Source: Jiangella asiatica
GTDB lineage: Bacteria; Actinomycetota; Actinomycetes; Jiangellales; Jiangellaceae
Assembly (NCBI RefSeq): GCF_004349065.1
Contig: NZ_SMKZ01000036.1
Location: 1-64,000 of the forward strand
Reading direction: 5' to 3'
DNA: 64,000 bases
The position numbers and the translations under genes were made by a program. Below, one piece after another: positions 8,339 to 21,500 of this stretch. Each line of letters starts with the position of its first letter. Position 1 is the first letter of the stretch. The notes beneath the pieces are model-generated. The model did not search any database, was not told where the DNA came from, and saw only the letters and a program-made list of their open reading frames with translations.

Positions 8339-10033
<1,695 letters not shown>

Positions 10034-10068: not shown

Positions 10069-10368
10069 TCACTTCTGCACGATGGCGAGAACGTCACGGC
10101 CGGAGAGGATCAGCAGCTCGTCGCCGCCGTACTTCACCTCGGTGCCGCCGTACTTGGAGTAGAGCACCACGTCACCGACCTTGACGTCGAGCGGGATACG
10201 CTTCTCGCCGTCCTCGTCCCAACGGCCCTCGCCGACGGCGACGACCTCGCCCTCCTGGGGCTTCTCCTTGGCGGTGTCAGGGATGACGAGCCCGGACGCC
10301 GTGGTCTGCTCCGCCTCCAGCGGCTTGACCACGATGCGGTCCTCGAGTGGCTTGATGGAGACCGACAC
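10069..10368 (-). CDS. groES: 10-kDa co-chaperonin GroES
   Basis: Lid of the GroEL chamber, 99 residues. It begins [17 protein letters not shown], carries the mobile-loop sequence [19 protein letters not shown], and ends in [12 protein letters not shown], all typical. The GTG start is preceded by GGGGAGG eight bases away. First gene of the groESL operon; the upstream region contains two CIRCE operators and a sigma-70-like promoter. Confidence 0.97.
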
Positions 10369-10492: not shown

Positions 10493-10521
10493 AACGTAGT
10501 CCGTGCTTAGCACTCGGTCAA
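10493..10521 (-). promoter_or_regulatory. groESL promoter
   Basis: On the minus strand, TTGACC (10516-10521) and TACGTT (10493-10498) are separated by exactly 17 bases. The -35 lies in the spacer of the distal CIRCE and the -10 lies just upstream of the proximal CIRCE, an arrangement that suits HrcA repression. Confidence 0.65.
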
Positions 10522-10533
10522 GGTGAGTGCCAG
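10507..10533. promoter_or_regulatory. CIRCE operator, distal copy
   Basis: TTAGCACTC, nine bases, then GAGTGCCAG. The left arm is canonical and the right arm departs in its last three bases. The nine-base spacer holds most of the -35 hexamer of the groES promoter. The right arm lies inside the 21-bp direct repeat that flanks the integrated element, so that half-site is duplicated at 11991-11999. Confidence 0.82.
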
Positions 10534-10537
10534 ACGA
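10517..10537. repeat. attL-like direct repeat
   Basis: This 21-bp sequence beginning GTCAAGGTGAGTGCC is repeated exactly at 11983-12003; flanking bases differ on both sides. It contains most of the -35 hexamer and the right arm of the distal CIRCE of groESL, so integration here left the promoter intact. Confidence 0.75.
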
Positions 10538-10584
10538 ACCATGTCGATCTTTCGACCTGGCCGCATCAAGCCTGGTCACCGCCG

Positions 10585-10850
10585 TCATGACGACCGGCGA
10601 CGACGACGCTTGGAGCCACGAACGGCTCGCGTGGTCCCCATCAGGTCCCCCAACACCCGATTCATGTGTTCAAGACCGCTCCGATTCTCACTCGACGGCA
10701 GGAAGTGCGTACGTGTCGAGCGTCAGCGTCGCGCTGCTGTGGCCGAGCCAGGCTTGTACAGTCTTGGGCGGGACGCCGCTGGACAACCACATTGTCGCGG
10801 CCGTGTGCCGCAGGTCGTGCACCCGCGCGTTCGAGGAGCGCCATTCACTG
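10585..10850 (-). pseudogene. C-terminal remnant of a tyrosine recombinase (phage-type integrase), frameshifted
   Basis: Conceptual reading on the minus strand gives SEWRSSNARVHDLRHTAATM, then SGVPPKTVQAWLGHSSATLT and LDTYA. This is the catalytic end of a phage integrase, with the HxxR box, the LGH histidine and the nucleophilic tyrosine (codon 10709-10711). One base is missing directly after the tyrosine; in the next frame the reading continues HFLPSSENRSGLEHMNRVLG to a stop at 10585, as expected for such integrases. The N-terminal DNA-binding part and most of the catalytic domain are absent, and an in-frame stop lies just upstream within the end of the GNAT gene. The protein cannot be functional. 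It marks the segment as the scar of an integrated element. Confidence 0.85.
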
Positions 10851-11258
10851 GCTCAGCCGGAACCAGTAGTTGACGGTCGGCCCTTCTGACGCCAACCCAC
10901 CACCCTCAGCGTCGTAGAGGGCACGCGCGGCGAGGTTGTCCGCGCCGGTGGTGAGAAACATCTTCGTTGCGCCGGCCGTCGCTCCCGCTGCCATGAACGC
11001 GCAGAGTAGCTTCCGGCCGATTCCAGAACGACGATGCGCCTGGTCGACCTCGAGCTGATGGAGGTACAGCATCGATGAACCGTCGGGTCGGACTAGGTGA
11101 TACCCCCACGCCCACCCGCAGGTGGTGGTACCGACAGACGCCACGAACGCCAGAGTGCCTGGTGCGTCGGTGAAGGCAGCGCCGGCATCGGTGTCCATGA
11201 ACCGGCGAACGGCCAGTGTGAGCGAGCCCGGGTCGGCCGGCGTGATGCGAACGTTCAT
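10845..11258 (-). CDS. GNAT-family N-acetyltransferase, AAC(3)-I-like
   Basis: A 137-residue single-domain acetyltransferase. The acetyl-CoA binding A motif is seen in VDQAHRRSGIGRKLLCAF, and the preceding strand YLHQLEV and the later MFLTTGADNLAARALYDAEGG follow the layout of AAC(3)-I aminoglycoside acetyltransferases and related small-molecule GNATs. The acceptor is unknown. The ATG at 11258 lies four bases after the stop of the kinase gene, so the two are co-transcribed and probably co-translated; the longer in-frame opening to 11567 only overlaps the kinase gene. It is cargo of the decayed element: its stop abuts the recombinase remnant, which marks a deletion junction. Confidence 0.75.
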   Translation of the reverse strand: MNVRITPADPGSLTLAVRRFMDTDAGAAFTDAPGTLAFVASVGTTTCGWAWGYHLVRPDGSSMLYLHQLEVDQAHRRSGIGRKLLCAFMAAGATAGATKMFLTTGADNLAARALYDAEGGGLASEGPTVNYWFRLSQ

Positions 11259-11262
11259 ACGC

Positions 11263-11814
11263 TCACCACCGTGACTCAAGCTGATCGACCCATCCGGCCC
11301 GGACGAGGATCTCGCGAGCAACTTCGGCGACGCTGCGGTCATTGGCGACGACGAAGTCCTCAACGGCGGCCGCTTCAAGCTCCGCCTCGTGCCGCGTGAG
11401 TGTCGAAAGTAGCCCTTCGAGCTTCGCCCCTTCCTCTCGTGCGCGGAGACGCCGGCGGACGGTATCGGTCGGGGCCACCAGCCGACACATCGTGACCTCA
11501 CATCCGGTAAGGCTCGCGATGTACTCCTCTCGCACGGCGAGATGATCAATGCAGCCAGCCACCACAACGAAGCGGGCGCCCAGCTCTTTGAAGTTCGTCC
11601 AGACCGAGGACACGTTGGCGCACTTCAAGCGGTCGTAAAACGCTCGGCGGTCCGCCAGCGGTTCGCCCTCCATCGCGGGCCCGAACTGGGCAAGCGCGTC
11701 AGCGTCTACAAGGGCGATGACCTTTCCGGCGGCGACGAGAGACCGGCCGATCTCGCTCGAGATCGTCGACTTCCCAACACCAGCAACGCCGCTGAGCAGC
11801 AATCCTCGATGCAC
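11263..11814 (-). CDS. P-loop kinase-like ATPase
   Basis: A 183-residue protein with a Walker A motif GVAGVGKST at residues 9-17 directly after the first strand. This is the architecture of small-molecule or nucleotide kinases (adenylylsulfate kinase, gluconate kinase, chloramphenicol phosphotransferase and related). A D-A-D segment (ALVDADAL) follows at the second strand, and a basic stretch TVRRRLRARE resembles the lid. No close family is recognised, so the substrate is open. The GTG start at 11814 follows GGAGG. With the GNAT gene four bases downstream it forms a two-gene cassette inside the integrated element, which suggests modification or detoxification of a shared small molecule. That is inference only. 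Confidence 0.65.
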   Translation of the reverse strand: MHRGLLLSGVAGVGKSTISSEIGRSLVAAGKVIALVDADALAQFGPAMEGEPLADRRAFYDRLKCANVSSVWTNFKELGARFVVVAGCIDHLAVREEYIASLTGCEVTMCRLVAPTDTVRRRLRAREEGAKLEGLLSTLTRHEAELEAAAVEDFVVANDRSVAEVAREILVRAGWVDQLESRW

Positions 11815-12219
11815 GAAGACCTCCAGTTACAGCCCGAACGTTAACCAATCGACGCGAACCGACGTCGTTGGGTCCCCGAGAGGTCCCCGCACGACGACGA
11901 GAGCAGCAACAAGCGGCCGATACGCAACGGGATCAACGCCTGTCACGTGCCGCGTCGCGCGGTGCAGGGTGTGCACATCGCAGTCAAGGTGAGTGCCAGA
12001 CGACCCCTCCGGGGGCGGAGAACGGCTCGAAACGGTCGTCGTTCTCCACCACGATCTGCGTCCTGGAAGCCCTTCTCGCGCGGGAACGGGCGCGGGGAGT
12101 CCCGCCGGACGTCACCGAGGCGCGCCCGCGCGGCAGGAACACCTCCTGGATCGCCGGCTGTTCCGGCGGAAGCCGACCCGTGGAGCGATCGAGCGCGATC
12201 GTAGGGTCGGCTCCGGCGT
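11815..12219. other. Gene-poor stretch around the right end of the element
   Basis: No convincing gene. The first part carries the ribosome site of the kinase gene (GGAGG near 11820) and a GGTCCCC repeat near 11871-11890, then the 21-bp direct repeat. A minus-strand open frame 11984-12319 has a partly protein-like end but no recognisable family and overlaps the remnant on the other strand, so I do not call it. Confidence 0.5.
11983..12003. repeat. attR-like direct repeat
   Basis: Exact second copy of the 21-bp sequence at 10517-10537. It lacks the groES-side flank and the -10 box, so it is the distal end of the insertion; the original chromosome resumes at 12004. Confidence 0.75.
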
Positions 12220-12380
12220 GACCGCTTCGCGTTCCCGACCTGGTGGCACTACGACGGGCGCTGGACAACCGCCATCCCGGCGCGATGCCGGTCAACTGGA
12301 CGAGGGCGAGGGACGGCACCAGCCGATGGAACGCCCTGCGTGCGCTGCGCGTGCTGGACTGGAGCTTCGCACGGGGCTGA
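12220..12380 (+). pseudogene. Remnant of a squalene-cyclase-like (alpha/alpha toroid) hypothetical gene
   Basis: The first frame reads DRFAFPTWWHYDGRW (from 12220). A different frame continues from 12261 with LDNRHPGAMPV, then SRWNALRALRVLDW and a stop at 12378-12380. Both pieces match, from memory, the C-terminal part of a common actinobacterial family of hypothetical proteins related to prenyltransferase or squalene-cyclase repeats. The middle is deleted and the frame is lost at the junction near 12258. The start and N-terminal part are missing. It lies just outside the right direct repeat and shows that this locus has decayed on both sides. Confidence 0.6.
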
Positions 12381-12462
12381 ACCGGGTTCCCGGAGCCGGC
12401 ACGAGGCCGCGCCGGCCGGAAGGTCCGCTGAGCGCGCCGCGGGCCTGTGCGAGGGTGTGGCC

Positions 12463-13635
12463 GTGGACGTCGAAACCCTCCGCACGCTCAGCTCACCAGC
12501 CGGGTCCGCGCTGCTCGCCGAAGCGTCCGCGGCGTACGGCCGGGAGGACGAGTTCGCGCTGGGCACCCGGCTGCGCCGCCGACACCCGCCGGCGCTGGTG
12601 GCCACGGCACTCACCCAGGCGCGGCTGCGAGCCCGCGCCGTCGACAAGTTCGACGCCGCCGACGCGGCCCGGCTGCTGTTCACCGTCGACGGCTACGAGC
12701 AGGCCACCCGGGCCGCCGTCGCCCGGCACCGGGCCGCCCGGATCGCCGCGACGCTCGGAGCCGGTGCGCGCGTCGCCGACCTGTGCTGCGGCATCGGCGG
12801 CGACCTGATCGAGCTGGCCCGGGCCGGCCTGGACGTGACCGCGGTGGAGGCCGATCCACTGACCGCGCACGTGGCCGGCGCGAACGTGGCCGCGCTCGGC
12901 CTGGCGGCGTCGGTCGTCGAGGCTGACGCCGCCGCCGTCGACCGGTCGGACTTCGCCGCCGTCGTCTGCGACCCGGCGCGGCGCACCGGCCGCGGCCGGG
13001 TGTTCGACCCCGACGCCTACCGGCCGCCGTGGCCGTTCGTCCTCGAGCTGCTGGCGTCGACGGCGTGCGTCAAGGTCGCGCCCGGCATCCCGCACTCGCG
13101 GCTCCCGGACGGGGTCGAGGCGGAGTGGGTGTCCGAACGCGGCGAGGTGAAGGAGGCGGCGCTGTGGTCTGGCCGGTTCGCCGCCGCCGGGGTACGGCGG
13201 CGGGCCACGCTGCTGCCGTCGGGCGCGACCCTCACCGACGCCGACGACCCGGGCTCCGGCGTCCGCGACCCCGGCCGCTACCTCTACGAGCCCGACGGGG
13301 CGGTGATCCGGGCCGGGCTGGTGACGGCGGTCGCGGACGCCGTCGGCGGCGCGCTGGTGGACCCGACCATCGCCTACGTGGCGGCCGACCGGCACGTGCC
13401 GACCCCGTTCGCGCGTGCGTACCGGATCACCGACCGGCTCCCCTACGACGTCAAGGCGCTGCGCCGGCACGTCCGCGAGCACGGGATCGGCACCCTGACG
13501 GTGAAGAAGCGCGGCGTCGACGTGCTGCCGGAGCGGCTGCGCGCGGCCGTCCGGCCCCGCGGCGACGCGGCGGCCACGTTCGTCGTCACCCGGGTGTCGG
13601 GGCGCGCGACGGTGCTGGTGGCGCAGCCCGTATGA
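12463..13635 (+). CDS. SAM-dependent methyltransferase-like protein with THUMP-like C-terminus
   Basis: A 390-residue protein. A Rossmann methyltransferase core begins at about residue 105: VADLCCGIGGDLIELA is the glycine-rich SAM loop, TAVEADPL the acidic strand end, and VVCDPARRTGRGR replaces the usual catalytic N/D-PPY. The C-terminal part, about residues 290-390 with VKALRRHVREHGIGTLTVKKRG, matches the THUMP-like domain of actinobacterial class I methyltransferases. An RNA substrate is likely but unproven. The GTG at 12463 is preferred because GCGAGGG lies seven bases upstream; the GTG at 12457 is too close to it. Its stop overlaps an in-frame ATG of the Nudix gene in ATGA. Confidence 0.82.
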   Translation: MDVETLRTLSSPAGSALLAEASAAYGREDEFALGTRLRRRHPPALVATALTQARLRARAVDKFDAADAARLLFTVDGYEQATRAAVARHRAARIAATLGAGARVADLCCGIGGDLIELARAGLDVTAVEADPLTAHVAGANVAALGLAASVVEADAAAVDRSDFAAVVCDPARRTGRGRVFDPDAYRPPWPFVLELLASTACVKVAPGIPHSRLPDGVEAEWVSERGEVKEAALWSGRFAAAGVRRRATLLPSGATLTDADDPGSGVRDPGRYLYEPDGAVIRAGLVTAVADAVGGALVDPTIAYVAADRHVPTPFARAYRITDRLPYDVKALRRHVREHGIGTLTVKKRGVDVLPERLRAAVRPRGDAAATFVVTRVSGRATVLVAQPV

Positions 13636-18590: not shown

Positions 18591-21500
18591 GGGCGACGCG
18601 GGGCGGACGGGGGTCGGTGACGTGCGGTCGGTCGTGCTGCCGTCGCCGAGCTGACCGCGGTCGTTCGCGCCCCAGCAGGACAGCGCACCGGTCACGCTCA
18701 CCGCACAGCTCTGGAACTGCCGGCTCGCCAGCGCCGCCACGGCACCGAACGGTTCGCCGTCCGCCGCAAGCACGGTGCCGGCGACGTCGCGGTCCGCGGT
18801 GCGGCCGTCGCCGAGCTGGCCGCTCTCGTTGAGGCCCCAGCAGGTGGCGCCGGCGGCGGCCGTGACGGCGCACGAGTGCAGCCCGCCGACGCCCAGGCCG
18901 GCGATACCGGCGAGCGGCTCGCCGGTGGCACCGTCGACCACCGGAAGCGGCACCGAGCTGTTGGCCGGCGCGGCGGCGTTGCCGAGCTGCCCGTACGCGT
19001 TCTGGCCCCAGCAATGCGCGGTGGCGTCGGCGAGGACGGCGCAGGTGTGCACGTTGCCGGCGCCGATCTCGGCGATGCCGGTCAGCGGCTCGCCCGAGGC
19101 GCCGGCGACGACGGCGGAGGGCAGCGTGGTGGGCCCGGGGTTGGCCCGGCCGATGCCGAGCTGACCGGCGACGTTCCAGCCCCAGCAGTACGCCGCGCCG
19201 CCCTCGACCACCGCACACGTGTGGTAGCTGCCCGCGCTGAGCTGGGTCAGCCCGGAGAACGGGCGACTGGTGTCGGCGGGGTCGACGACGGCGGCGGGCA
19301 CGGTTCGCTGCCCGATGGACCCGGTGCCCAGCGCGCCCCAGTAGTTGTAGCCCCAGCAGCGGGCGGTGCCGTCGCTCAGCAGGGCACAGGTGTGCGTGCT
19401 ACCGGCCACGATGTCGACGACGCCGGTCAGCGGGGCCCCGCCGGCCTCGGAGGCCACCACGGTGCGCGGCTGGGCGGAGCTGACCTCGTCGCCGGTGCCG
19501 AGCCGGCCCGCGCCGTTGAAGCCCCAGCACGACACCGTCGTGTCGACGTGCAGGGCGCAGGTGTGCTCGGAACCGGCGGCAAGGTCGGTCACGTCGGTGA
19601 GCACCCGGACCGGCACAACGGTGGGCTCTTCGCCGGACGTGCCGGTGCCGAGCTGACCGGAGAGGTTGTGGCCCCAGCAGTACGCCGTGCCGCCCTCGAC
19701 CAGCGCACAGGTGTGCTCCTCGCCCATCGCGATGTTCTCCACGCCCAGCACGTCCAGCGGCAGCTCGGCCGTCGCGGTGGAGCCGCGGGCATCGGTGACC
19801 GTGACGGCGACCGTCGCCGGTGCGGCGTCGGTGACGGCCGGCGCCGCCGCGTCGGTGCCGATCAGGCCCGACGACGGGGTCAGTGTCAGGCCGGGCGGCA
19901 GGCCGGTCGCGGCCCAGGTGTACGGCGCCTCGCCGCCGGAGGCGCGCAGGGTGGCGCCGTAGGCCTCCAGCACGTTCAGCGGCGGCAGCGCGGTGGTGGT
20001 GACGGCGAGCCGGCCCGGCTTCGGGTCGATCTCGATCTCGACTGGGTCGGCGCAGGTGTCGGTGCCGGCCACGCAGAGCCGGTACTCGAACGTCGTCACC
20101 GCACGGACCCGGCCCAGCTCATCGGTGTACGCACCATCGTTGGCCGTGGTGGCCAGCAGCTCCCCGTCGCGGTAGACGTCGAGCTCGTCGCCGGGTGCGC
20201 CGGCCCACGTCAGGTGCGTCCGGTAGTAGAACGGCCGGACCCGTTCCGCCTCGACCGCCAGCTCGAACGCGGCCGGCTCGGCCACCGTCAGCGTCGCCGG
20301 CACGGCCACCAGCGGCCGTACGGGGTCGTCAGTCTCCACGCACAGCGTCGCGGCGTGCTCTCCCGCCGGCAGCCCGGCGGCGTCGTAGCCGATCGTCACC
20401 TCGCTGGTCGCGCCCGGCGCCGTAGTACCGGCGGCGGGCGTGGCCGACAGCCACTCCGGCAGCGTGCACACCGGCCGCTCGCCGCCGGTGACCGCGAGCA
20501 CCAGGTGCATGTCCGGCGAGCCGAGCTCGGCCACGGGCGTCGGCTCCGGGGTGTCGCACCCGGCCGCGGCCGCGTACGTCGGCGCGGTCTCGCCGGCGGC
20601 GTTGGAGCCGGGGTAGAACGCGCCGGTACCGGACAACGTCGGTGCCACGATCTCGACGACCAGGGTGGAGCCGGCCGGCGCCCAACCGGTCACCGGCACG
20701 CTCACCATGGTGAACGCCTGGAACTCAAGCTCCTGGGTGGCGGTGCCGATTCGGGTCAGGTTGGCGTAGGTCAGCTCGCCGTCCAGCGTGTAGAGGTTCA
20801 CCGTGATCGGCGCGGTGGTGTTGAGCCGCTGCACGCCGAAGGTCACCTCGGAGACGTCGAAGTCGTCGACGATGCCGAAGTCGGCCAGCGTGAACGTGCG
20901 CAGGTACGCGGTCTCGTCGGTGGTCCCGAGCGGGCCGCTGCAGGCGAGGCTGTGGTCGCGGACGATCTCGGTGGACGCGGAATGGGTCAGCGTCACCTGG
21001 TCGCCTGGCGCCGCGAACGGCTCGGCCGGCGCGGCCGCGTCGCCGCCGCCGGCCTCGGTGTCGGTGCCGAAGCCGGTCGGGCTGTCGGTGCCGGCGACGG
21101 TGTCCGGGACGGTCGCCGGTCCGGCCGGGTGCAGCACGGAGCCCGTGCCGGCGGCCGCCGCGCCGTCGGTGCCCAGGACGCTCCAGGTCAGCGGCGCCTC
21201 GCCGGTGTTGCCGATGGCGACGGTGTCGGTGCCGGTCTCCCCCGCCACGACCTCGGCGCTGAGCGCGTCCGGCGTCACGTCCGCGGCCGGGACCGGCGGG
21301 GTGCCGGTGCCGGTGAGGGTCAGCGGCAGCCAGTCGGTGCGCGCGTCGCTGGTGACGGTGACCGTGCCGGTCGCGCGGCCGTCGACGGACGGGGCGAACG
21401 TGTAGTCCAGCGTGCAGCTGGCGCCGGGTGCCAGCGTGAACGGTGCCGCGCCGCAGGTACCGCCCGCGGCTTCGAACGGCGCGTCCGGCGCGGTCACGGA

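Follow-up and report, generated by a model that had tools for sequence, protein, structure and literature searches.

In this study, we describe a short integrated segment next to the chaperonin operon of Jiangella asiatica. The window is the whole stretch of DNA analysed, 64,000 nucleotides of contig NZ_SMKZ01000036.1 (positions 1 to 64,000), and within it the groESL genes are followed, on their promoter side, by a segment that begins and ends with the same 21-bp sequence. The features of the locus are as follows:

8339..9952 (-), groEL, intact (ORF list)
10069..10368 (-), groES, intact (ORF list; congener groES 96-100% identical)
10493..10521 (-), predicted groESL promoter (read from sequence)
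10507..10533 (-), distal CIRCE (HrcA operator), complete at the groES-side junction (sequence)
10517..10537 (+), attL core, 21 bp, within the CIRCE and -35 (repeat search; empty-site comparison)
10585..10825 (-), tyrosine integrase 3' fragment (...HDLRHTAA...LGH...LDTYA...) (ORFs, profile match)
10633..10650 (+), putative arm-type site GGTCCCC-ATCA-GGTCCCC, 95 nt inside attL
10845..11258 (-), GNAT acetyltransferase, 137 aa, intact cargo (PF00583, E = 4.5e-12)
11263..11814 (-), P-loop kinase-like protein (AAA_18/AAA_33), 183 aa, intact cargo (family match)
11871..11888 (+), putative arm-type site GGTCCCC-GAGA-GGTCCCC, 94 nt inside attR
11983..12003 (+), attR core, displaced half-CIRCE and TTGAC (repeat search)

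The predicted groESL promoter consists of the -35 box TTGACC (10516-10521), a 17-bp spacer and the -10 box TACGTT. Its -35 box overlaps the spacer of the distal CIRCE, which reads CTGGCACTC-ACCTTGACC-GAGTGCTAA on the promoter strand with TTGACC inside the spacer; a second CIRCE-like dyad lies downstream of TACGTT on that strand, and the genome has a gene for HrcA itself (PF01628, E = 3e-55). A preliminary description of this DNA held that an identical 21-bp sequence flanks a segment with a recombinase remnant and covers most of the -35 hexamer and one arm of the distal CIRCE, and all of this was borne out. The exact 21-mer GTCAAGGTGAGTGCCAGACGA is found at 10517-10537 and 11983-12003, and the groES-side copy spans TTGAC, five bases of TTGACC, together with one distal CIRCE arm, the block of identity starting one base inside the CIRCE spacer and extending through the distal arm. 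The attR copy is accompanied neither by the other CIRCE arm nor by any good -10. The 21-mer is not a common genomic repeat, as these two copies are the only ones in the whole 7.03 Mb genome even with up to 3 mismatches allowed, and when the 3-kb region was shuffled 200 times under a first-order Markov model, the longest exact repeat reached at most 16 bp (mean 12), below the 21 bp observed. The core lies at the CIRCE and overlaps no tRNA or tmRNA gene, the sole tRNA within the window being a tRNA-Asp at 21478.

The recombinase remnant (RVHDLRHTAATMWLSSGVPPKTVQAWLGHSSATLTLDTYA / HFLPSSEN..., with a frameshift near 10705) has lost the 5' part of its gene and hence the N-terminal part of the protein; read across the frameshift, it matches PF00589 with E = 4e-9. 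It points at the groES-side core with its stop codon 47 nt away, and in this form, as a 3' fragment only, a tyrosine recombinase gene stands beside one att site. The closest intact integrase found, in Plantibacter (L098), is 85% identical over 40 aa and lies beside tRNA-Val, and relatives of the fragment in the class adjoin tRNA-Arg(CCT), -Val, -Ala, -Lys and -Leu genes. Searches for integrase relatives in GTDB contigs, IMG/VR and 394 genomes of the class found none near groES.

While the repeat and the recombinase remnant of the earlier segment description stand, it left unlisted the two arm-type repeats and two intact genes, the GNAT acetyltransferase and the kinase, which are the only intact genes between the cores. 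Replication, transfer and phage structural genes, by which an ICE or a prophage would be recognized, are absent between the cores. In another genus of the family (G016), a GNAT homologue 76% identical to that of the element stands beside a kinase homologue 72% identical, and the DNA at 10839-11839 is 78-80% identical to this pair. The G016 pair (L168:9735-10845) adjoins a MazF-like gene and a tRNA Gly/Cys/Val cluster, not groES. In the genomes searched, no part of the segment other than the GNAT-kinase pair recurs elsewhere (72-76% identical), and none has the same segment between unrelated flanks, an arrangement in relatives named beforehand as evidence against integration at this site. Among the 394 genomes, the kinase is found in one other only (E <= 1e-20). 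Judged from sequence comparison, the two genes read as a small mobile cargo pair and may be what selection has retained; PADLOC gave no convincing match for a role in defence. Elsewhere in the same genome, G000:C112:98215-98442 (L166, L169) holds a C-terminal fragment that shares 53% identity with the kinase of the element.

The empty site in close relatives that the preliminary description had called for was found in 11/11 congeners. In all of them the segment is absent from the alignment to the window, which runs to about 10533 and resumes from about 12441-12502, and the CIRCE/core stretch is single, with sequence divergence. A direct-repeat core at both ends is thus paired with a single copy in element-free relatives. 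Since the congeners align on both sides without the segment, the segment is an insertion in this lineage. In 10/11 congeners a methyltransferase gene lies about 35-120 bp from the CIRCE, and in the eleventh (G010) it lies about 1.3 kb away, beyond different sequence (L020, 13686-14987), in which no integrase was detected.

The 437 bp between attR and the methyltransferase gene (12004-12440) are likewise missing from 11/11 congeners, so that the sequence to the right of the core before integration is defined only approximately. This stretch (GC 72-74%) gave no protein family match, a search for a coding origin found none, and a short open frame at 12231-12377 had very weak matches only. It was considered as part of the element and rejected, because the arm site lies 94 nt from the core at 11983 and GC climbs directly past that core, from 62-67% inside the element to 69-80% to its right; we treat it as a separate change. 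This GC step favours an inserted element; against it, the GC of the groES side is no different from that of the element.

The two GGTCCCC-N4-GGTCCCC pairs are the only copies of this motif in the genome, both lie inside the element, and the symmetry of their distances from the cores (95 and 94 nt) has a probability of about 0.002 (~0.2%) under random placement. From their position, they look like arm-type sites of the integrase, and viral contigs with the same motif on both sides of tRNA 3' ends (below), as in phage attP sites, favour this reading. A comparable pair in Plantibacter, GGGGACGCCACGGGGAC (GGGGAC-N5-GGGGAC), occurs once in 20 kb, in the interval separating the integrase from its target and at 87 nt from the tRNA; unlike here, the target is tRNA-Val(TAC), and the other end of that element was not found within 20 kb. 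Across 104 pooled integrase loci such motifs occur near the chance rate, Plantibacter being the single supportive case. The GGTCCCC pairs offer a testable arm motif with which attP sites of integrases of this kind could be located.

The absence of the segment from 11/11 congeners, the unique repeat, the integrase 3' end beside a core, the symmetric arms and the location of the integrase relatives at tRNA genes give good support to site-specific integration at the groESL promoter by a tyrosine integrase. We regard the segment, with a probability of about 0.88, as what remains of an integrative element that a tyrosine integrase inserted, either a small island or a phage satellite. The favoured targets of tyrosine integrases are tRNA genes, which are conserved sequences with short dyads in them. 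In tRNA-targeted elements the tRNA 3' end is supplied by attP (PMC4383910). Here, an integrase of a tRNA-targeting lineage would have recognised the CIRCE dyad instead of a tRNA arm; the layout suggests that the CIRCE arms act as core-type sites. The attP of the element would have borne the distal half of the CIRCE together with most of the -35, so that after crossover the groES side would have a complete groESL promoter and operator, with a half-CIRCE left at the opposite end. The idea that integration rebuilt the promoter can be kept in the sense familiar from tRNA genes, the half borne by attP completing it unchanged. A later deletion probably took the 5' part of the integrase and other genes and left attL, attR, both arms and the GNAT-kinase pair, and the element would now be immobile unless a related integrase acted in trans. 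The evidence base is one locus in one draft genome, and as no intact element with this core was found, we infer the crossover and the role of the arms. Longer elements with the same ends, which the preliminary description had proposed to look for in relatives, did not come to light among the matches from the 394 class genomes, GTDB contigs, IMG/VR, plasmids or the groES regions: a 17-mer of the core had four chance matches in viral contigs, the arms with GTGAGTGC had one, in a repetitive coding stretch without an integrase, and the plasmid search gave no match.

An insertion by transposition or illegitimate recombination, with the 21 bp duplicated by chance and the integrase fragment carried as cargo, appears improbable. 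The locus has undergone rearrangement, given that 12004-12440 is likewise lineage-specific, and the cargo pair is present elsewhere without the integrase of the element; however, the integrase frame ends close to one core in the usual orientation, the arm pairs are placed almost equally from both cores, and neither terminal inverted repeats nor a transposase were seen.

Even less probable is a live or trans-mobilised switch that couples excision to heat shock, in which excision would alter groESL output. It is true that the site lies on the HrcA operator, and that both cores and both arm pairs are perfect, so that a related integrase could still excise the element. However, the integrase is truncated and frameshifted, and the genome has no close full-length partner for it, the best other integrases sharing only about 45-52% identity with the fragment over 44-52 aa. 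Moreover, CIRCE, -35 and -10 would be identical before and after excision, integration altering only DNA upstream of the distal CIRCE, and no second species was seen with such an arrangement among the matches listed or the groES regions surveyed. With a broken integrase, no close relative of it in the genome, and operator and hexamers unchanged, the link between excision and the stress response that the preliminary description had raised is unsupported; as far as can be read from the DNA, the element is most likely inert. That the second half-CIRCE is a native regulatory copy made by local duplication or slippage, and not an att site, is the least credible account: the repeat does belong to the HrcA operator, but the far copy is without a second CIRCE arm or a good -10, and the congeners carry a single copy and lack intervening DNA of this kind.

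Whether tyrosine integrases use this site elsewhere in the class was also considered. The groES upstream regions examined numbered 119: 100 taken throughout the class, each about 4 kb long unless a contig end made it shorter, and, mostly as longer stretches, 11 from congeners and 8 from further genera of the family. A CIRCE-like dyad was present upstream of groES in 117/119 of these actinomycete regions. With 82 integrases as queries (E <= 1e-6), a tyrosine integrase was found upstream of groES in 0/119, and the window region, used as a control, gave 75 matches. A degenerate motif search of the 394 genomes returned no other closely spaced pair among the matches listed. The lack of another case in the survey suggests that the CIRCE site of groES is rarely used by integrases. 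A wider proposal, that the CIRCE dyad has replaced tRNA arms as the core of a lineage of actinobacterial tyrosine integrases, that the groESL operator of HrcA is a conserved attachment site at which HrcA and integrase compete, and that intact elements exist unsampled, is in our opinion unlikely.

No report of a CIRCE or groESL promoter as an integrase core was found in the open-access literature. Islands placed by tyrosine integrases in tRNA genes have been mapped, for example, in Islander (PMC4383910). As in such tRNA islands and prophages (PMC4383910), the integrase here lies by the regenerated target with a displaced target fragment at the far end, the core extends from a dyad as far as the target's end, and paired short direct repeats stand in both arms; unlike them, the target is the HrcA operator with the groESL -35, and the element has decayed to 1.4 kb. 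Tyrosine integrases of Mycobacterium abscessus prophages also use non-tRNA attB sites, including regulatory ones (PMC8092301, PMC9262239). Their cores lie outside tRNA genes, as here, and two overlap a ribosome-binding site and start codon, but the downstream gene then needs a prophage promoter, whereas the host promoter is kept in J. asiatica; none was reported at groES (PMC8092301). Islands at dusA share a target at the 5' end of a gene, with putative promoter elements before and after integration, although their core is in the dusA coding sequence and they form a large, widespread family (PMC4482086). PAISt, at bacA in Streptomyces, is similar in that a tyrosine recombinase acts on a palindrome other than a tRNA arm, and differs in being an active 674-kb element with an 8-bp palindrome at the 3' end of the gene (PMC4057263). 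The attachment site of mycobacteriophage Bxb1 is likewise in a chaperonin locus, groEL1, but its integrase is a serine integrase acting within the coding sequence, by which groEL1 is inactivated (PMC9262239).

CIRCE is another conserved dyad besides those of tRNA genes, and the present locus suggests that a conserved operator can replace a tRNA as the target and that, with the missing half carried by attP, an essential promoter can survive integration.

Some further repeat motifs deserve mention. A scan of viral contigs for three half-sites at attP spacing gave 42 contigs, many of them coding or simple repeats, and six of the 42 have a tRNA T-arm motif between the half-sites (L195, L218, L222, L225, L232 and L235), L218 with an integrase alongside. 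Pairs resembling GGTCCCCATTGCGGTCCCC recur at similar positions, about 2.5-4 kb upstream of an integrase match, in related Streptomyces elements and one viral contig (L117, L126, L131, L133, L141 and L068). The viral contigs L200, L204, L210, L214, L215, L221, L226, L228 and L229 have in common a conserved region of about 240 bp, in which numerous GGTCCCC copies, both direct and inverted, surround an alternating GTGCGCGTGCGCGCGCATGCGCGTGTGC stretch; this region could be an attachment or replication site.
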